From: Neocallimastix lanati (nom. inval.)
Lineage: Eukaryota; Neocallimastigomycota; Neocallimastigomycetes; Neocallimastigales; Neocallimastigaceae
NCBI GenBank assembly: GCA_016946835.1
Contig: JACVTC010000018.1
Coordinates: forward strand, 1,643,501-1,707,500
Direction of reading: 5' to 3'
Length of the DNA stretch: 64,000 nt
Shown: positions 16,931 through 50,711 of the stretch, one piece after another
Position numbering within the stretch: position 1 is the stretch's first letter
Layout of the letters: each line of letters starts with the position of its first letter
Notes under the pieces: generated by a model
The model's database searches: none
What the model was told of the DNA's origin: nothing
The model's input: the letters and a program-made list of their open reading frames with translations, nothing else
Made by a program: the position numbers and the translations under genes

Positions 16931-18430
16931 CAAATATCCCAATAACTTATCAACAAGCAATTAATTCATCAGAAAGTGAAGAATGGAAAATTGCAATAAA
17001 TGATGAATTAAAAAATATGTATGATAATAAAACAATAGAAGTGGTAGAAAATATACCTACTGATACTAATTTAACCTGTACTAAATGGGTCTTTGCCGAA
17101 AAGGATAATAAAAAGAAAAAGGCAAGACTTGTGACTCTTAATTGTCAACAAGTTACTGGTGAAGATTTTATAGAAACATATTCTCCAATAGTTCAAGCAG
17201 ACAGACTAAGACTAACCATCACTATCGCATCAAAATTTAACTGAGATTTGAAACAATTGGATATAAAAGCTGCTTTCTTGAACGCAAATTTGGAAGAAAA
17301 GAATTATTGAAAGAATCTTTATGGTGATAAAAATTTTAATACTAATAAATTCTGGCTACTTAAAAAAGATCTTTATGGTTTTAAACAAGCTGGATGAATG
17401 TGGTATAACGTAATATCACATTATATAGTAAGTATAGGTTTTAAAAAGTACAAAACTGACAAATGTCTCTTTGGGAAATACAATAAAAATAATAAATTAA
17501 CATGTTTACTAATATTATATGTAGATGATATCTTAATAACAGGAATTAAAAATGAAATAAACTATACTGTATATAAATTAAAAGATAAATATAAAATTTC
17601 TAAAGATTCTAATGCAACTAAAGTAATAGGAATAAATATTTATAGAATAAGTAATGGTTATAAAATAAATCAGATAGATTATATTAATAAAATAATAGAA
17701 AAATATAATATGAAGAAATCAAAACAAATAAAAACACCATACAAGATAATTAGAGAATATGAAAGAAATAATTCAAACTTAATAGATTCAAAAGAATATA
17801 AATCTTTACTTGGTGCATTACTATATATTGCTGTAAAGTCAAGACCTGATATAATGTTTTCTGTAAGTGAAGCCTCAAGAATATGTGAAAATCCAACAGA
17901 AGCTGATTATATAAATTTAATAAATATCTTACAAAATTTAAAAAAGGTACAAAAAATAAACCTATACATTATAATAAAGATAATAAATTTATCGGATACT
18001 CGGATTCAGATTTTACCAACAATGAAAAGACGAGAAGATCTATAAGTGGATATATATTTTTACTTGGAAAAAGTCCTATTTCATGAAAATCTCAGTTACA
18101 GAAAAACGTAACTTTATCTACTGCTGAAGCTGAATTTGTTCGTTTGACTGAGTGTACTAAATAAGCTCTATGGTTCAAAAATTTATTTAAAGAATATTTA
18201 ATCAAGAAATAAAATTTAAAATTATGATAGATAGCAAATGTATTGCAATTGCTCAAGATACAAATTCTTAAGGAAGATATAAGCACATCGACATAAGATA
18301 TAAATTTATTCAGAAGAGATTGTGAAAAAAAGGAAATTGAATTAGAATACATCATCTAACAGGTTTCACAAAGAAAAATCACATAATACAAGATATAGAT
18401 GGGTCTTATTTACTAAAATAAGGCTTCAAT
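16930..18430 (+). pseudogene. Ty1/copia reverse transcriptase-RNase H, nearly full length but broken
   Basis: The order of motifs is complete: SEEWKIAINDELKNMYDN (start of the RT domain), CTKWVFAEKD, ETYSPIVQADRLRLTI, DLKQLDIKAAFLNA, KKDLYGFKQAG, ILYVDDILITG (catalytic YVDD box, about 17517-17545), SRPDIMFSVSEASR, then RNase H (FIGYSDSDF, RRSISGYIFLLG, LSTAEAEFVRLTECT). In-frame stops include four TGA codons. Two of these (FN-stop-DLK, PIS-stop-KSQ) sit where copia proteins have a conserved Trp. A frameshift occurs near 17945. It is the best-preserved pol in the window but cannot be translated as one protein. Confidence 0.85.
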
Positions 18431-26655: not shown

Positions 26656-28878
26656 TTAAGATACAAAATTATGATCTTCATTGGATGCGCTAGCCCTGCT
26701 GGCCTGTCTTACTGTTTCTTCAGCATTGACGCTCTTGGTAGTAGTAGTACGATTCGATTTGAACCTATTGAACAAAGACCATTGCTGGCCAATAGCAATA
26801 GGTATAATCGATTGGAGAAGTGCCGCAGTAACCACTAAGAACGGAGTATCAGAATAAGCACCTGATTTCATCTGGCACTTAAATAGATCCTTCCATTCCC
26901 TTGTACTGTTATTAATACTTCGACCTCCAAGAAGGAAATTAAACACTTTTTCACACACACTAGAATCAATATACACATTATTTTCAATACAATTACTAAC
27001 ATTACTAAAAATACTATTACTAATATTATTATTACTATTATAACTATTACTATTATTACTATTACTATTATCATTATTACTATTAACAATATCATTTGTT
27101 AGGTTGCCACGGTAAAAAGCATTATATAAAAATAAAATTTTATCATTAACTTTACTACGAGTATGATTGAAAAAGGGACAATCAATTAACCAATGACATA
27201 TCCATTGTTTATTACTTTTACAACAGGAACAAAAATTAGGACACATTTGGTCCACTATTTTTGCAGCTTTAGCAATTCTAGCATCTAATCTATATCCGCT
27301 TCGTGCTCTCAATAGCCAATAGAAACCATATGAAAGATCAGGATAGTCATAACAAAGTTTTATAAATTTTGATGTTTCTTCGAATTTGTTTTTGTCATAA
27401 AACTCAGCTTTAATAGAATTGATTTTCATATCTCTTTTCCAATAAAAATCCTTGATTTTATTATCGTTATTACCTCTTTTCTCTAGTTTACGTTTAAGAG
27501 TTCTACTTTCTTTTGTCCATGTATATTTTCTAGATTTTGGAATATTATTAACTAAATAGGAAATAATACAATTTGAATTTTTCCATTTATCAAAACATTT
27601 GACCTGAGACAAAGCACACTTAGCTGACAATGGAGGAATATGTAAATCTTTTGAAATAGAATATACATTAATAAATGATTTGGCTTTTTGTATACCTGCA
27701 ATCCATCTTAATCCTTTATTAATTAATTTCTGAGTATTATTTGTTCTCGTTTTATTCGAACCAAGTAAAGGTGCAAAGTAAGAGACTTTACTAAGTACAT
27801 AAGAGTTAATTATAATCTTCTTAAATGGAATAGGAATTTTGGAATTTGAAAGAAATTTACTAACAGAAAAAAGAGCTTTAGTTACTTTAGAGTTAAGTAA
27901 TTTAATAATAGGTTTCAACGATAAGCTTTTATCAAATGGTATACCTAAATAGGTATAACATTTAGTTATTGGAATTGGTTGACCAGCAAGATAAGAAGTA
28001 GGATCTCTTTTATTTTGAAAAAGAGGTGTGTCTGGTCGAATCACCATCGTTGCACACTTATTAATTCCAAAATTCATCATATTAAATTTAGCCCATTCAT
28101 TTACCTTCTTAAGCATTTTTTTCAACTTAGTTCTTGACGGTGCGCATAGAACAATATCATCTTCAAAGAGTCCACCACAACATCTAGATTCGCCTAAAGG
28201 AATTCCAAGTTCTGAAACATCATTAAAAATGTCATTAATAAAAAGATTGAAGAGAATTGGTGATAGTGGACAACCTTGTCTAACTCCTTTCATAATATTA
28301 AAAGATTCCGAATATTGATCATCAATTTTAACACTAGCTTTGGATGTCAAATATAGATTTTTTATAAATTGATAACATTTACTTCTAATACCTAAAGCAT
28401 CTAATTTATATAAAATATTACCTATTGGAACAGAATCATATGCCTTTTTTAAATTCTGAAAAGCTAGGTAAGTTTCATTATTATCATTTTTACGCCTTTG
28501 ACAAATTTCTCGAATTGAAATAAATAAACTAACACATTCTTCTTTAGTACGAAATCCAAATTGCTCTGGCCTAATAAAATTATTTTTAAGTCCATATTCT
28601 GAAATTCTTTTGGAGACTATTTTCGAAATGAGTTTAATACCATTGTTAATCAGAGAGATACCTCGATAATTGTCACAATCAGATAGATTATCTCCTTTTT
28701 TAGGAATAGATATAATACTTGCTTCATTCCATGAGCTAGGAAATTCTCCATTCCAAATTCTTGAGTATATCTTCTGTAAACAATTTAAACCAGAAGAAGA
28801 ATTATTTACTGAATTTTCGTCATCCGGAGGAATTAAAGCTTTATAAAATTCAATAGGAATTCCATCCGGGATATTTAT
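26656..28878 (-). pseudogene. 5'-truncated LINE ORF2 (non-LTR reverse transcriptase)
   Basis: One frame is open without a stop from 28878 to the stop at 26656 (about 740 codons). It begins inside the protein with NIPDGIPIEFYKALI, so the endonuclease and N-terminus are missing. RT motifs appear in order: IPKKGDNLSDCDNYRGISL, PEQFGFRTKEECVSLF, FQNLKKAYDSVP (motif A region), GVRQGCPLSPILFNLFINDI, GLFEDDIVLCAPS (motif C region), INKCATMVI and YLGIPFD. C-terminal parts are a Cys/His cluster (CPNFCSCCKSNKQW then CHWLIDCPFF) and an Asn-rich stretch. Motif A has Asn where LINEs carry the catalytic Asp, and motif C reads FEDD rather than the usual FADD. Truncation at the 5' end is typical of LINE insertion. 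It is probably inactive despite the open frame. Confidence 0.85.
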
Positions 28879-29630
28879 TTAATATTTTTAATTCTTATTT
28901 TATTTTTAAATTTAATAATTTCGTACATTAAAAAAAAAATATATATATATATAACTAAAAAAAATATAACTAAAAAAAAAAAAAAAAATATTAAATTAAT
29001 AATAATAACAATATATATTTTTTAAACTTAATAATATAGACTGAAAATTGGTTAAGTCATATTTTTTTAACATGTTATATAATATAAATAATTTTTTTTT
29101 TTTTTTTATTTTATCAAGAATTACACCAAAACAAAGTAAAAAAATTTATATTTTAATAATAAAAAATAAAACACTTTTTATTGATTTATTATTATATCAT
29201 TAATTTATTTTTTAATTTTAAGATCAATTTTTATTTATTTATTTATTTATTTATTAATGAACTTTTATTCTAATTTTACTAATTAATTATTGTTTCTTTT
29301 TGTTCATCTTTTCATTTATTTATTTTTTGATTATTATGTTCTTTATTTATTTATTTAATTTTCTTTTTATTCATTTTTTTTATGTTTTTTTTTTTTACCT
29401 ATCTTTTTTTTTTATTTAATTACGTTCTTTATTTTATTTATTTATTTATTTATTTTTTATTTATTCTTTTTTTTAACTTTTTATTTAATTATTTTATTTT
29501 GCTATTTTTTATTTATTATATAAATTTTAATAAAAATAATAATAATATTTAATTATTATTTATTTTAATTTTTATTTATTGTTATATTTAAATTTTTTTT
29601 ATTTTTTTTTTTTTTGTACTATTATTTATC
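28879..29630. other. gene-free AT-rich spacer
   Basis: Dense T-rich sequence with many TTTA repeats (for example 29230-29260 and 29430-29460). It is the 3' flank of the dockerin-CYTH gene. No feature was seen. Confidence 0.5.
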
Positions 29631-30542
29631 TTATTGAGATTCAGGAATTCCATATCTTGATAATCTTCCGTTTTTATATCTAATGTCGTCAGTAACTTCT
29701 TTTATTACCCAATCAGGAGTTTTATATGCATCACTTTCTGATTTATTTGCAAATTCTATTTCCATGTAGGCAAGTCCTTCTAAATCTTTTTCGAAGATAT
29801 CAATAGCTACTAATTCCCCATCATCAAATAATTGATATCTTGTTTTATATATTACATTACCTTCCTGTTTTTTTATCATATTATCATATTGTTCTTTATT
29901 AATTGGAATATTAACTTCATCCCTAATAAGACCATCTTCAGTTAAATTAGTTTTTATAGTCATTTCATACGATAATCCATTATTACTTACACTTGTATAT
30001 TCTCTTACTCTTATCTCTGGATCAAAACAAATATATGTTTGCTTTATTTTAAATGCTATACCAATAAAGTTTGTTGTTAAGTCATATGGAATCTTTTCTT
30101 TGTCAAGTAACCATTTTCTTTCAATTTCTTTGTCATCACCTGTTACTTCATTAACTCTTTCAATATATCTATCAACTATTTTGCTAAAGTCTTCATCGCT
30201 CTCATTAGAATTACAAATACACCATTTATAATTGTTAATTCCCCAAGTCCCTTCTTCATCAGTATATAAAACTTTACAATCTTTAGGACAGCATGAATAG
30301 CCTTTTTCTAAAATACTGGTAGCACATTCAGTAGTAACAATTTCAGATTTAGTATCTTCACATCCGCACCATTGATCATTCTCAACACCCCAGTTTCCGT
30401 CTTCGTCTGTATAAACTACCTCACATTCCGAAGAACAACATTCATATCCTTGATTTTTAATTTTAGAAGAGCAATTACTTTTTGCGCTAACAGTACTGGC
30501 TAGAGTTAAAACAACGAAATTAATAATTATGAATAATTTCAT
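29631..30542 (-). CDS. secreted protein with two fungal dockerins and a CYTH triphosphate-tunnel domain
   Basis: A single 303-residue frame. Residues 1-20 form a signal peptide (MKLFIIINFVVLTLASTVSA). Two Cys-rich fungal dockerins (CBM10-like) follow at about 24-61 and 73-110, each with the CCxxxC…YTDE(D/E)G(N/T)WG…WC pattern. After an acidic linker, residues 139-300 match the CYTH/triphosphate tunnel metalloenzyme family: the EIERK signature (ExExK, 139-143), EIRVR (176-180), EMTIK (193-197), R207/E209 in IRDEV, KTRY (233-236), D248, EIEF (261-264) and EVTDDIRY (282-289). Family members bind metal and hydrolyse or cyclise triphosphates inside the cell. Here the signal peptide and dockerins imply export and attachment to the cellulosome. 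All key charged residues are present, so activity is plausible. The substrate is unknown. No intron was seen. CYTH similarity to bacterial-type enzymes suggests possible transfer, but this was not tested. Confidence 0.85.
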   Translation of the reverse strand: MKLFIIINFVVLTLASTVSAKSNCSSKIKNQGYECCSSECEVVYTDEDGNWGVENDQWCGCEDTKSEIVTTECATSILEKGYSCCPKDCKVLYTDEEGTWGINNYKWCICNSNESDEDFSKIVDRYIERVNEVTGDDKEIERKWLLDKEKIPYDLTTNFIGIAFKIKQTYICFDPEIRVREYTSVSNNGLSYEMTIKTNLTEDGLIRDEVNIPINKEQYDNMIKKQEGNVIYKTRYQLFDDGELVAIDIFEKDLEGLAYMEIEFANKSESDAYKTPDWVIKEVTDDIRYKNGRLSRYGIPESQ

Positions 30543-31390
30543 TTTTTTTTTAATTTATAAATTATTTTTAAACTATAATAGTAACTAATTTAATTTATCT
30601 TATTCTTAAATTTAATATACTTATTTTTATTAACTTTTAGTATATTATTTATTTTTTTTTTTTTTTTTTTTTTATTTTTTTTAAGAAAGTAAAAAATTTT
30701 TTTTTGTACTTTTTTTTTCTTTTTATAAAAAATAACAATTTTATTAAAATGATAGTAATATATTATTTATTTTTAATTTTTTTTTTTTTTTTTGGCTTAT
30801 TTGAATAGTTGTAAAATAAAAATAATATTTATAATAAATATAAATTCTTTTTTCATCTGTTTCAAAAATTAACTAACATATTTAATAATAAATTATCAGA
30901 ATATTCTATAATTTTTATTATAGTTATACAATTTATAGTATTTTTTCTTTATATAAATAAATATTTTTTTTTTTCTTTTTAATTATTTTGATATATATTC
31001 CCATATATTATTGGTCATCGTTCTGATTTTTGTATAGCGATAATATATGAATGTAAACAAATTGAATTACTACATAATATATTTTTTATATTTATTATAT
31101 ATAAAAATAAATAATATGAATCATTACTACAACATATTTATATATCCCAAGTTGATTTTGTTGTATTTTTTATGAAATAATATTATAGTTAAAGTTAATT
31201 TTTGGAAAATGATATAATTTTTTTTTAAATAAATTTTATTTTTAAATTAATTAAACAAAAATAAACTTTTTTGTAATACGTTTATTATTTTTTTTAATTA
31301 CAATTTGATATGAAATGAAAATAAAAACCTTAATTATTAATAAATTATTTTATTAATAATTACATAAAAATAAATCAATTAATCACTCGA
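30543..31390. other. gene-free AT-rich upstream region of the dockerin-CYTH gene
   Basis: Contains T-runs at 30650-30673 and 30777-30794. The last part (31300-31380) is the reverse complement of 42050-42125, so it belongs to a dispersed AT-rich repeat family. No defined promoter element could be picked out. Confidence 0.5.
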
Positions 31391-31860
31391 TTGGGGAGAG
31401 CGCGTTTCGGAACCGCACGTGAATAGATATAAGCCACATGTTTTTGAGATGGCGTATTATATATAAATTTTTTTATATAAATAAATAATTAAATAATAAT
31501 TAAATAAATATTTTATTTTATAATAATTTCATAATTTAATATATATTTGATAATAAAAAATAAAAAAATAAAAAAATAAAAAAATAAAAAAAATAAAAAA
31601 ATAAAAAAAATAAAAAAAATTAAAAATAAAAAAAAAATAAAAAAAATAAAAAAGATTAAAAAAATAAAATACAAAAAAAATAAAATAAAATATTTTCATT
31701 TTTATTTATATTTAAAGAAATTATATGTGCCATTTTATTTTAATGTTTTAAATATTATATTCATAAATAAAAATTTATAAAAAATTATATAAGCCACATT
31801 CCGAAATGAAAATTTATGTAAAATTATTTAAAGCCACATTCCGAAACGCACCACCCCCAA
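31391..31860. mobile_element. MITE-like element with terminal inverted repeats
   Basis: The left end reads TTGGGGAGAGCGCGTTTCGG, and the reverse complement of the right end reads TTGGGGGTGGTGCGTTTCGG. Both then continue with a variant of a CGTGGCTT or GCCACAT block. The element is about 470 bp, non-coding, with an A/AAT-rich interior (31555-31690). An internal copy of AAGCCACATTCCGAAA lies at 31791-31806. It is inserted in a dispersed AT-rich repeat whose parts flank it (31300-31380 and 31870-31990). No clear target-site duplication was seen. Related ends occur at 26195-26240 and 41130-41160. Confidence 0.6.
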
Positions 31861-31990
31861 ATTTATATAGCAACATAAATTCTAGAAAATACATAAAATT
31901 AATGCAAACATAAAATTTATAACATAAATTTTATGTTATGTAAATAATTTATAAATGAATTAAGTTTTATTTTATTTCATTTTAATTATT
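31861..31990 (-). repeat. AT-rich dispersed repeat fragment
   Basis: The reverse complement aligns with 41885-41995 and, less well, 59270-59380. The shared core is ACATAAAATTTATGTTATAAATTTTATGTTT followed by ATTAATTTTATGTATTTT; it is itself palindromic around TAACATAAATTTTATGTTA. Confidence 0.6.
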
Positions 31991-32183
31991 TTATTTTATT
32001 AAATTTTTAATAATTATTATTTTATATTAATATTTTATTAATTATAATAAATTTATATTTTTATTAATATTTTATGAATATTTTATTTTAATATTTAATT
32101 TTATACTTTATATTAAATTTAAATACTTAATAGTTATTCTCAAAGAATTAATTAAATAGTTTATTACAAGAAGACGAAAAAAA

Positions 32184-32510
32184 AAGCCATTAATAAATAA
32201 TAATAAAAATAAATAAACCTTTAATTAATAATAAAAAATAAATAAATAAAAAAAAAGCCTTTAATAAATAATAAAAAATAAAGAAAATAGAAAAAAAAAG
32301 CTTTAATTAATGATAAAAAATAAAAAAAATAAATTGAAAAAAAAAAAAACTTTAATGATAAAATATAAAAAAAATAAAATAAAAGAAACCTTAATAAATA
32401 ATAAAAAATAAATAAAATTGAAAAAAAAATAAGATTTAATTAATGATAAAAAATAAATAATTTAAAATATAAAAACCTTAATTAATAATAAAAAATAAAA
32501 AAATAAAAAA
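32184..32510 (+). repeat. ~40-47 bp minisatellite, about eight units
   Basis: Units begin TTTAATTAATAATAAAAAATAA or TTAATAAATAATAAAAAATAA and end in an A-rich tract with GCC or ACC. It is purely A/T-rich and non-coding. Confidence 0.65.
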
Positions 32511-32794
32511 AAATATTTTTATTTTTTTTTTTCTAAAATATATATTATAGATTTATTAATTATATAAATACAAATTTATATATTTTGTAAAAATTTTTTT
32601 TATTTAATATTTAAAAAATTATGAATTTAAAAAAATGAAAGTTTTTGATACTTACTAAGCCTTAAAAAGAATTTTCTTTTATTTTAAATTATTACTAATT
32701 TCATTTTATAATTTAATTATATTCAATTATTTTTATTTTTTTTTTTGTTTTATTTTATTTATTCTTTTATTCTTTTTTTTTTTTTTTTTTTATA

Positions 32795-33015
32795 GACTTG
32801 AGACCTATGTCTCCCCCATATATTAATATTAGTGTTTGTTTAATTGTCATACTGGTACGGCGTCGACGCTCTCAACCCTCCATAAGCAAAGAAACTACAG
32901 TATAGAAGCACCCTACTCGATCCTCAAAGGAAAACAGAGCCCACTATAGGTCACCTCCTTGCCATCCCAGAAGAGCTGGAAACTGTAATTCTGTCAGGCA
33001 AGGCTTATGCAGTGG
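32795..33015 (+). repeat. dispersed GC-richer repeat, plus-strand copy, coding-like
   Basis: Counterpart of 25300-25560 in inverted orientation. The frame shared with the other copy reads YWYGVDALNPP, then a stop, then EPTIGHLLAIPEELETVILS and GKAYAVGIIKY before a TAG at about 33030. The conserved peptide and a mixture of silent differences suggest a decayed protein-coding unit. The two copies point away from each other and bracket the LINE and the dockerin-CYTH gene. Confidence 0.7.
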
Positions 33016-44372: not shown

Positions 44373-46151
44373 ATGTTAGAAAAAATAATATTACTATTTT
44401 TAATAGTTGGTCAAATAATATTGGCCTCCACTTCTTATATTGAGGATGGAAAAAGAGCAAAATTATTTGAAATAATGGATAAGGAAGTTCCAACATTTAG
44501 AGTAACTATATCAGATGATCAATTAAAAGAATTAAAATTTGCTATGCAAGTCGAAAATGCGGCTACAACTGAAGCTCTGGATAGATTAGACTTTGATGAT
44601 AGAGTGATTGAATTTGAAAAGGTTAAAAATGCTACTTTGATTATTGAAATTAATGATAAAGAAGAAAATTTTAATAAAGTTACTTTTGATATCGGAGGTA
44701 GTTCAGCTCGTATCTATGGTAGACAAGGTTTCAACATCAAAATTCGTGATAAAAATAAGGATTTATATGGTCGCACACATTTTAGAATTCGTTCTGATCC
44801 ACGTGATGCTACCTACTTAAGATCAAAGTTATGTTGTGATATGCTTAACCGTTTAGGTATACCTTCAATTTCAGCTAATTATATTAAATTATATGTTAAT
44901 GAAGAATACTTCGGATTCTATGTTTTAATGGATGCTCCAAAAATTCCATGGATTGAACAAGTATTTGGTGAAAAAGATACTAAAAATTTATATAAATGTA
45001 AAGAAGGAGGTAATTATTTATCATTTATAAATAGTATGGACTTATGTGAAAATGAAGATGACGAATATACAGATAGAACCGAATGGTATAATCTTTTTAA
45101 GGCTCTTGATAACGCTCAAACTGTTGAAGAAATCGAAGATATTTTTGATGTTGATCAATTCTTATATCTAGCTGCCTTTGAATATTTAATCGGTGCATGG
45201 GATCATTTCTTACTTGTAGGTCACAATTATAGTATGTATAAAAATAAGAAGACTGGTAAGTGGACTGTACTTTATTATGACTTTGATAGTGATCTTGGTC
45301 AAGATGTTGTTACTATCGAATTTATGAATTTGAACCCACCTAAAGATAAGAATTATCCACATTACTCTGTTCGTCAATGGTTCCATTTACAACATCATAT
45401 TTCAGATATTATTATATGGGATAATCTTCCTCGTTTTGAAAGTACACTTTCTGAAATCGTTAATAAAGTCTTTAATCCAACCACTCTTTTCCCACATATT
45501 GATGATCTAAAAGATTTTATCAGACCATACATTTTAAATGATAAAACTCCAGATGAAAATGGACTCAAACCAGGTGTCCTCAATTTAGCCAATCCATCCG
45601 ATTATTCAATGGAAGAATGGGAAGCTAATAGTGAATTTACCACTATTAATAATTTAGATGTTGGAAGTGACGCCTATGGTATTAAATATTGGATTCTTGA
45701 AAGATATAGAACAGTTTGTAAGGAATATAATTTAGAATGTGATCCAGTTTATATGGATGAAAATTATGAATACCCAATTGATAAGGAAGTACAAAAGGAA
45801 CTTAATGTTCATAAATGGGAAGGAATTGATTGGAGAATAATGATGGGTATTCCAATTGATGAACCAACAGGAATATCGACTGAAGAATCAATCGAAAAGC
45901 CAACTGAAGAGCCATCTGAAGAGCCATCTGAAGAGCCATCTGAAGAACCATCTGAAGAACCATCTGAAGAACCATCTGAGGAACCATCTGAAGAACCAAC
46001 TACAGAACCAACTACAGAAACAAATGAAGAACCAACCGAAAAGCCAACTGAAGTACCAATTACAAAGTTAACTGAACCATCAAATATTTGCAGTTTTGTT
46101 GGTAACATTGTAAAAGATTTTATTAACTTAATAAAGAATATTTTCAAATAA
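44373..46151 (+). CDS. secreted CotH-family protein with (EEPS)n tail
   Basis: 592 residues, intronless. Residues 1-20 are a signal peptide. The CotH kinase-like domain spans about 85-400, with RSDPRDATYLRSKL (140-153), YIKLYVNEEYFGFYVLMDA (170-188), a conserved GAWDHFL (274-280) and YYDFDSDLGQD (301-311), the last carrying the acidic residues expected at the active site. Bacterial CotH phosphorylates proteins; the role in gut fungi is unsettled, although fungal CotH proteins are often cellulosome-associated. The tail (about 512-570) has seven EEPS repeats, further Thr/Pro/Glu-rich sequence and an amphipathic C-terminus (VGNIVKDFINLIKNIFK). No dockerin is present, so attachment, if any, must occur another way. 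The gene is a near-duplicate of the one at 62759 and shares its upstream region. Confidence 0.85.
   Translation: MLEKIILLFLIVGQIILASTSYIEDGKRAKLFEIMDKEVPTFRVTISDDQLKELKFAMQVENAATTEALDRLDFDDRVIEFEKVKNATLIIEINDKEENFNKVTFDIGGSSARIYGRQGFNIKIRDKNKDLYGRTHFRIRSDPRDATYLRSKLCCDMLNRLGIPSISANYIKLYVNEEYFGFYVLMDAPKIPWIEQVFGEKDTKNLYKCKEGGNYLSFINSMDLCENEDDEYTDRTEWYNLFKALDNAQTVEEIEDIFDVDQFLYLAAFEYLIGAWDHFLLVGHNYSMYKNKKTGKWTVLYYDFDSDLGQDVVTIEFMNLNPPKDKNYPHYSVRQWFHLQHHISDIIIWDNLPRFESTLSEIVNKVFNPTTLFPHIDDLKDFIRPYILNDKTPDENGLKPGVLNLANPSDYSMEEWEANSEFTTINNLDVGSDAYGIKYWILERYRTVCKEYNLECDPVYMDENYEYPIDKEVQKELNVHKWEGIDWRIMMGIPIDEPTGISTEESIEKPTEEPSEEPSEEPSEEPSEEPSEEPSEEPSEEPTTEPTTETNEEPTEKPTEVPITKLTEPSNICSFVGNIVKDFINLIKNIFK
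45906..45995 (+). repeat. 12-bp coding minisatellite (EEPS repeats)
   Basis: Seven in-frame 12-bp units, GA(A/G)GA(G/A)CCATCT, within the CotH tail. Copy number is likely to vary between alleles or paralogues. Confidence 0.9.
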
Positions 46152-49373: not shown

Positions 49374-50711
49374 TTAATTTATTTCTTTTTTAATACTATG
49401 ATTGGCTAAAAAATTTATTATATTTTCATTATTATATCTTTGTGCAATTATTAAAGAAGTGTCACCATTCTTATTTTTCTGAAGTATATTAGCTCCTAAA
49501 TCCACTAAATACTTTATCAATTTTTCATTTCTTTTTTTACATACATAAATTAATGGGGTTTCTCCTTGACAATTTTCCATATTTATATCTGCTCCTTTAT
49601 CTATTAAATATTTTATAATAGTTTGATTTTCCCTATCACAAGAAATTATTAATGGTGTTTTACCATCAATATTTTCTTTGTTAATATTGGCTCCTTTTTC
49701 TACCAAATATTTTATAATTGATTCATCACCATTAATACAAGCAATAGTTAAAGGTGTATCATTGTATTTGCTTTCTTCATTCACATCCGCACCATGATTA
49801 ACTAAATATTTTATAATACCTTTGTATCCATACCGACAGGCATTCACCAAAGGACTATAATTATTTACATTACATTTATTAACTCTAGCTCCATGATCAA
49901 TTAAACACTTTACAATCTCTTCATCTCCTTTATCACATGCAATAGCTAATGGGGTGTCTCCAATATTAATTGCTTTATTGACATCAGCACCATGTTCAAT
50001 TAAATAATTTACAATAGCTTCATTTGAATAAAGACAAGCAATAATTAATGGTGTATTTCCATGTCTATCACCTTTATTAACGTCAGCCCCATGTTCTATT
50101 AAATAATTTATTAAATTTTCATTTTCATTGTAACATGCAATAATTAAAGGTGTGTTACTATTATTGTCTTCTTTATTAACATCTGCTCCGTATTCTATTA
50201 ATAATTTTATTATATTTTCATCTTCTCTCTCACATGCAAAATTCAATGGTGTTTTGCCATCAACATTAAGTACATTAATTTTGTCCTTCTCTTTCAAAAT
50301 TATTTCTTGAAATTGAAATTTAGAAATTTTAGTTTTATTTTTATATAGAGAAAGTAAATTCAATATCATTTTATTATCAAATACATAATTATCCATCAAA
50401 ACCTTTAATAGATCTTCTCTATTTTTTTTTATAAATAAAAATAAACAATTTGAATCGACTTTACATTCATTTCTAATAATAAATTCTAATAATTTTTGGT
50501 TAAGAAATTCATGATTAAACAAATTTGTAATTAAATTTAAATCATTTTTATTTAAATATCTGATTGCTTCATAATTATCAGAGGTTACAGCTGTTTCATA
50601 AAAAATTTTATTTATAATTATTTCATTAGAATTTTCCTTCATAAAATATTTTAATTTTTTATTTTCACCATTTCTAATCATCTCAATTATTTTATTTTTT
50701 TTATAATCCAT
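49374..50711 (-). CDS. ankyrin-repeat protein, nine repeats
   Basis: 445 residues in one intronless frame from the ATG at 50711. Residues 1-150 are a divergent, mainly helical region (MDYKKNKIIEMIRNGENKKL…) that probably consists of degenerate ankyrin helices. Nine clear ankyrin repeats of 33 residues follow to about residue 440, each with the TPLxxAC…NENIIKYLIEHGADVN pattern. The last repeat is slightly degenerate (TSLIIAQRYNN). There is no signal peptide, transmembrane segment or catalytic domain, so it is an intracellular protein-binding scaffold. Such proteins form large families in anaerobic fungi. A partner cannot be deduced from the sequence. Confidence 0.9.
   Translation of the reverse strand: MDYKKNKIIEMIRNGENKKLKYFMKENSNEIIINKIFYETAVTSDNYEAIRYLNKNDLNLITNLFNHEFLNQKLLEFIIRNECKVDSNCLFLFIKKNREDLLKVLMDNYVFDNKMILNLLSLYKNKTKISKFQFQEIILKEKDKINVLNVDGKTPLNFACEREDENIIKLLIEYGADVNKEDNNSNTPLIIACYNENENLINYLIEHGADVNKGDRHGNTPLIIACLYSNEAIVNYLIEHGADVNKAINIGDTPLAIACDKGDEEIVKCLIDHGARVNKCNVNNYSPLVNACRYGYKGIIKYLVNHGADVNEESKYNDTPLTIACINGDESIIKYLVEKGANINKENIDGKTPLIISCDRENQTIIKYLIDKGADINMENCQGETPLIYVCKKRNEKLIKYLVDLGANILQKNKNGDTSLIIAQRYNNENIINFLANHSIKKEIN

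Follow-up and report, generated by a model that had tools for sequence, protein, structure and literature searches.

CthTTM of Clostridium thermocellum is a cytosolic protein. It is a CYTH protein, as is the product of the fungal gene described in this study, and the passages on it in PMC3440374 and PMC4641920 report PPPase activity together with a broader polyphosphatase activity and mention no dockerin. The nearest solved relative is NeuTTM (NE1496; 2fbl, 3typ), the inorganic triphosphatase of Nitrosomonas europaea, which resembles the fungal protein from the ExExK motif to the C-terminus, including the catalytic Tyr and Lys. However, NE1496 is a bare chain of 153-155 residues, whereas the fungal protein has a signal peptide-like start and dockerins.

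The roles of dockerin proteins without a sugar-related function in fungal cellulosomes are largely unknown. The commonest non-sugar dockerin partner in these fungi is CotH, which makes up about 20% of the dockerin proteins in five fungi and whose role is only speculated upon in the relevant passages of PMC8665504. Among the bacterial xenologs of anaerobic fungi, 86 are reported to have gained CBM_10, and 13 to be CotH xenologs (PMC11291939). The fungal CYTH gene would have followed the same route as CotH, that is, a bacterial gene was given CBM_10 after transfer; unlike CotH, CYTH is not named in the main text of PMC11291939, the part to which this comparison applies. A paper on a tortoise fungus mentions dockerin-bearing 'phosphatases' in a passage that gives no detail, and the CYTH passages of PMC6416229 contain no secreted CYTH form. 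Our literature searches found no report of a dockerin-CYTH protein, a cellulosome CYTH or a triphosphate-tunnel protein of Neocallimastigomycota; supplements and most subscription papers lay outside their scope, and some table may list the gene without comment. As far as these searches for dockerin or cellulosome together with CYTH reach, the architecture is undescribed; a preliminary description of the locus likewise knew of no earlier account.

The gene is located at 29631..30542 on the minus strand of the window, by which we mean the whole 64,000-nucleotide stretch of Neocallimastix lanati DNA that was analysed. Its ORF reads as 303 amino acids and a stop. The 303 codons run from ATG to stop with zero internal stops, the protein is readable without any intron, and none of 2000 base-shuffled versions of the ORF retained the open frame. 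GC content is 33% and 27% in the two halves of the ORF and 8% and 11% in the flanks, and these values, together with the fungal dockerins, fit an anaerobic gut fungus. The contig is 1,767,508 bases long, in an assembly of 199 Mb and 762 contigs. When this genome, the one fungal genome in the comparison, was searched with the CYTH part, the gene itself and one chance match (E 2.96) were obtained, so the gene is present in a single copy. A scan of the fungal genome with PF01928 gave no match and is uninformative, as the model misses the dockerin-CYTH gene too. Occurrence in one genome and in a single copy is in keeping with an assembly chimera or a never-expressed gene, in which case there would be no real protein. 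We consider this very improbable: the frame is continuous within the 1.77 Mb contig and its flanks have the low GC given above, the closest bacterial sequences found are just 65-66% identical, which argues against contamination by a sampled bacterium, and the residues appear to be held by selection.

Several other features were found in the window. At a distance of about 14 kb, a neighbouring gene encodes a CotH-kinase protein of 592 aa (44373-46151, plus strand; PF08757, E 9.3e-39), which begins with a signal-peptide-like stretch, ends in a PT-type repeat tail and has no dockerin match. A reverse-transcriptase frame of 545 aa (26656-28293, minus strand), 1.3 kb from the CYTH gene, covers positions 117-203 only of the RVT_1 profile and has the appearance of a truncated retroelement. 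Part of a polymerase from another kind of retroelement is found at 17398-18045 on the plus strand (RVT_2, E 9.8e-19, profile positions 129-242), and an ankyrin-repeat protein of 445 aa lies at 49374-50711 on the minus strand (Ank_2, E 3.8e-77). Upstream of the CYTH gene, a short G+C-richer stretch at about 31390-31450 stands amid very AT-rich sequence; a tRNA scan of the 64-kb window and an Rfam scan of window positions 28000-33000, both of which include this stretch, found nothing.

The N-terminus of the protein, MKLFIIINFVVLTLASTVSA followed by KS, reads by eye as a putative signal peptide (residues 1-20; 30483..30542, minus strand). CBM_10 (PF02013), the fungal dockerin, matched the protein in two stretches with an E-value of 6.6e-23. 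The best stretch is dockerin 1 (residues 24-61; 30360..30473, minus strand), which was similar to the Endoglucanase 45A dockerins of known structure, 2j4m and 1e8p, in a phmmer search of PDB sequences. The second stretch is dockerin 2, which by eye spans about residues 73-110 (30213..30326, minus strand). Paralogues of the dockerin pair are numerous in this genome, with 83 matches at E<=1e-10 including the pair itself, and the best of the others is 55% identical. The preliminary description had read one intact frame joining a signal peptide, two fungal dockerins and a CYTH domain; the continuity of the frame and both dockerins were confirmed, and its signal peptide stands on the by-eye reading of residues 1-20.

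The CYTH/TTM domain was assigned to residues 139-303 (29634..30128, minus strand) by its match to 2fbl/3typ and by alignment with bacterial relatives. Neither PF01928, the Pfam CYTH model, at E<=1 nor NCBIfam matched the fungal protein. In the phmmer search of PDB sequences, NE1496 (2fbl, 3typ) was matched at E 1e-14 over residues 186-295, and a nine-sequence family profile matched 2fbl and 3typ at 1.1e-23, the match beginning at the ExExK motif. This motif is E139-I-E141-R-K143 in the fungal protein, and E139, E141, K143, Y170, K197, E209, E261 and E263 are invariant in all nine aligned proteins. The catalytic dyad proposed for NeuTTM in PMC3440374 is Tyr-28 and Lys-52; in our alignment of NE1496, a Tyr and a Lys 24 apart, as in that paper, align with Y170 and K197. 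By motif position, Glu-2, -4, -90, -171 and -169 of AtTTM3 correspond to E139, E141, E209, E263 and E261; according to the passages on AtTTM3 in PMC4641920, Glu-2, -4, -90 and -171 form one metal centre and Glu-169 serves the other. The fungal CYTH part is homologous to a structurally solved CYTH protein and is predicted from it to have the eight-stranded tunnel fold. The preliminary description had set a significant CYTH profile match as a test beforehand, and literally this failed with PF01928 on the fungal protein, so that a PF01928 match could not serve as proof of CYTH identity and the link to the solved structure was used instead. The CYTH claim itself stands on that link, the ExExK motif and the reported catalytic residues. 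The failure with PF01928 is outweighed because a solved CYTH protein matches and some relatives do pass this model: its cut-off was passed by two of the first eight bacterial relatives and missed by six, and another relative, L026, passed it while L053 had no match at E<=0.01. PF01928 covers this branch of CYTH proteins poorly.

Since catalysis has been lost in some tunnel-fold proteins, namely Med18/Med20 (PMC4641920, in the part on these proteins), and dockerin-borne CotH has been speculated to bind the plant cell wall (PMC8665504), the CYTH part might be a non-enzymatic module that grips polyphosphate or a phosphorylated surface and sticks the complex to cells or plant material. However, all catalytic and metal-binding residues are retained, and of the 44 columns that do not vary among 14 further proteins of the exported clade the fungal CYTH keeps 43, the sole change being L to M at 222; we therefore regard a mere binding role as improbable. 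It is reasonably probable that the protein is an inorganic tri-/polyphosphatase of the metal-dependent CYTH/TTM kind, that its gene came from bacteria, and that it is secreted and docks on the fungal cellulosome; secretion, docking and activity are predicted from the sequence. The enzyme might act on another extracellular triphosphate, as a nucleotidase, RNA 5'-triphosphatase or nucleotidyl cyclase on ATP or RNA of lysed cells. TTM enzymes handle many triphosphates, CthTTM is described as less specific than NeuTTM (PMC3440374, PMC4641920), and the acidic patch is common to TTMs of differing activities (PMC4641920). NeuTTM, however, is reported to be a highly specific PPPase, and the passages of PMC3440374 on activity give no significant adenylyl cyclase activity for NeuTTM or CthTTM. 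Such a substrate is unlikely in our judgement, if less so than a purely binding role.

As for the origin of the CYTH part, one scan of a prokaryote species collection found 13 stretches, eight of which are relatives of the fungal CYTH. These eight bacterial loci, with 50-65% identity, are the nearest relatives found. By record title, seven belong to Clostridia or groups within them and one to Firmicutes, and two titles point to a ruminant gut as the sample source (the rumen of a sheep and the rectum of a water deer). Between fungal and bacterial proteins 109-114 of 174-176 residues are identical, yet shared four-fold sites agree little (10/26 for L003, and 7/22, 4/23 and 8/23), which argues that the protein is under selection, while silent sites look near saturation. 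Either some time has passed since the transfer or the sampling missed the true donor. The fungal CYTH gene is best read as an acquisition from bacteria, seemingly gut bacteria, and the descent of its CYTH part from a bacterial gene of a group now in Clostridia is supported. By eye, the gene context of these first eight loci has no recurrent neighbour, except for a similar gene adjoining L006 and L007. Other sources were considered and rejected: seven stretches of viral contigs fit a pattern and none encodes a relative, plasmids gave one 69.6% DNA match in the AT-rich 3' flank only, and 36 phage records all had less than 60% identity (31.9-38.0% for the best 20 of 36). CYTH-like genes do occur in phages, those of Pseudomonas and Aeromonas among them (records H4, H5, H10 and others), and one among the matches listed, out of 36 records in all, is annotated as CYTH domain-containing.

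Genome sets, which overlap and include the seed genomes, were searched with profile A2. At E<=1e-20, 22 of the 391 genomes examined from a single class gave matches, and many of these matches were short CYTHs that lack a hydrophobic start; with stricter limits, matches were found in 3/14, 2/13, 1/397, 5/292 and 6/58 genomes. The exported CYTH form is rare and patchy among the sampled bacteria.

All 11 membrane-type frames (L003-L010 and L053-L055) have a hydrophobic N-terminal segment, with a mean hydropathy of 2.6-3.7 over 18 residues, a first residue between 5 and 31, and an end 11-41 residues ahead of the CYTH core. Charge leaves the side of the CYTH part unsettled in these 11 forms: counts of K+R place it outside in four and inside in five with two ties, and net charge places it outside in six and inside in four with one tie. 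Three of the first eight genomes contain a further CYTH match of lower strength, and L019 and L020, two of these three, are ordinary short CYTHs; the anchored protein is therefore a distinct paralogue there. The linker of the fungal protein (residues 125-138; 30129..30170, minus strand) resembles the bacterial stretch between the membrane segment and the CYTH core. It was compared with the 11 membrane forms and three of the six bacterial dockerin forms described below. Eight of 14 residues are identical to L003, and 0 of 20000 shuffles were equally good. Identity is 4-8 of 14 in nine of the 11 membrane forms, the weakest being L053, for which 376 of 20000 shuffles were equally good; it is 1/14 in each of L054 and L055, and 0/14 in each of the three dockerin forms. 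The simplest reading is that the membrane anchor was swapped for a signal peptide and dockerins just outside the membrane.

A bacterial parallel was found in six of 58 genomes of one order (L022, L023, L042 and L056-L058), in which one protein combines a related CYTH with a signal-peptide-like start and a type I dockerin. The order is signal-peptide-like start, dockerin, Pro/Thr-rich linker and CYTH of the same clade, so the bacterial and fungal proteins share a signal-peptide-like start, dockerin, linker and same-clade CYTH. They differ in that the bacterial dockerin is PF00404 and not PF02013, the bacterial linker is of the Pro/Thr type, and the bacterial proteins form a separate tree branch. 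Dockerin_1 (PF00404) was above the cut-off in all six (E 1.6e-16 to 2e-7), and PF01928 in one, the other five scoring 19.7-22.6 against a cut-off of 23.2 bits. In L056-L058 the signal peptide and the dockerin are separated by an additional secreted segment, which has no Pfam match at E<=0.01. In two of the dockerin-CYTH genomes 86 and 77 dockerin matches were counted, so that these two have the look of cellulosome producers. Among the eight genomes that supplied the first membrane forms, four gave no dockerin match, two gave one each, and the remaining two gave 3 and 10. The preliminary description had taken CYTH enzymes to be normally intracellular. In this clade, however, with a hydrophobic N-terminus in every membrane form and six bacterial relatives that are secreted dockerin-CYTH proteins, the association with membrane or secretion predates the fungal gene.

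The tree comprised 33 rows. The profile used to gather them was seeded by the fungal protein and its closest relatives, which biases the sample towards these. L031, L039, L040 and L041 (distant or fused to other domains) and L034 (a 77-aa fragment that resembles exported-clade proteins and whose frame is interrupted upstream in its record) were left out, L021 was excluded, L011-L018 are the same genes as L003-L010, and L056 was entered from one codon past the ATG in the Pfam scan and the tree. One group (100/99) united all 18 rows whose N-terminus is of the export or membrane kind, namely 11 membrane forms, six bacterial dockerin forms and the fungal protein. Within the tree the fungal row grouped with five membrane forms (100/99), and the six bacterial dockerin forms made a single group (100/100). 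Constraining fungal and bacterial dockerin forms together was rejected with six bacterial rows (p-AU 0.018) and was not rejected with three bacterial dockerin rows only (p-AU 0.184). Because the fungal and bacterial dockerins belong to different Pfam families (PF02013 and PF00404), the two taggings are best taken as separate, and the exported CYTH clade would have been dockerin-tagged at least twice.

These results suggest the following scheme for the proposed phosphatase. Descent of the CYTH part from a bacterial gene of the Clostridia group with an N-terminal hydrophobic (membrane) segment is supported, and the sequence supports replacement of the anchor by a fungal signal peptide and two dockerins, with the linker and catalytic residues kept under selection. 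The protein would be secreted and its dockerins would bind a scaffoldin. By homology, E139, E141, E209, E261 and E263 would hold metal ions; the metals, together with Y170, K197 and basic tunnel residues, would hold a linear triphosphate, candidate ligands being PPPi, a polyphosphate end and possibly NTP; and an activated water would cleave the terminal phosphate by the two-metal TTM mechanism. More speculatively, the enzyme may clear or mine the tri-/polyphosphate of plant and microbial debris where digestion occurs; the scavenging or ligand binding suggested in the preliminary description is likewise a putative role. Calcium and pH in the rumen are ill-suited to enzymes with calcium inhibition and an alkaline optimum, and the rumen is rich in phosphate. 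Both properties are reported as characteristics of this family (PMC3440374), and with the phosphate-rich rumen they argue against simple phosphate scavenging; the enzyme might just as well remove polyphosphate that binds calcium or coats surfaces. More broadly, and with a little less than an even chance of being right, we propose that an exported clade of CYTH phosphohydrolases, distinct from the cytosolic CYTHs and without a name in the literature searched, acts at the surface of plant-fibre degraders and was independently fixed to fungal and bacterial cellulosomes, the reason being an unrecognised extracellular tri-/polyphosphate step in fibre digestion, such as removal of calcium-chelating or surface-coating polyphosphate.

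That two unrelated dockerin systems should both have recruited the exported CYTH clade is difficult to ascribe to chance, and it reduces a vague question to a simple assay, namely extracellular triphosphate cleavage by a small protein. The fungal dockerin-CYTH would illustrate how a bacterial membrane-type protein is re-tagged after transfer into a eukaryote. If the proposal is true, CYTH enzymes gain an extracellular branch, and the separate fungal and bacterial tagging hints at an overlooked phosphate chemistry in plant-digesting complexes.
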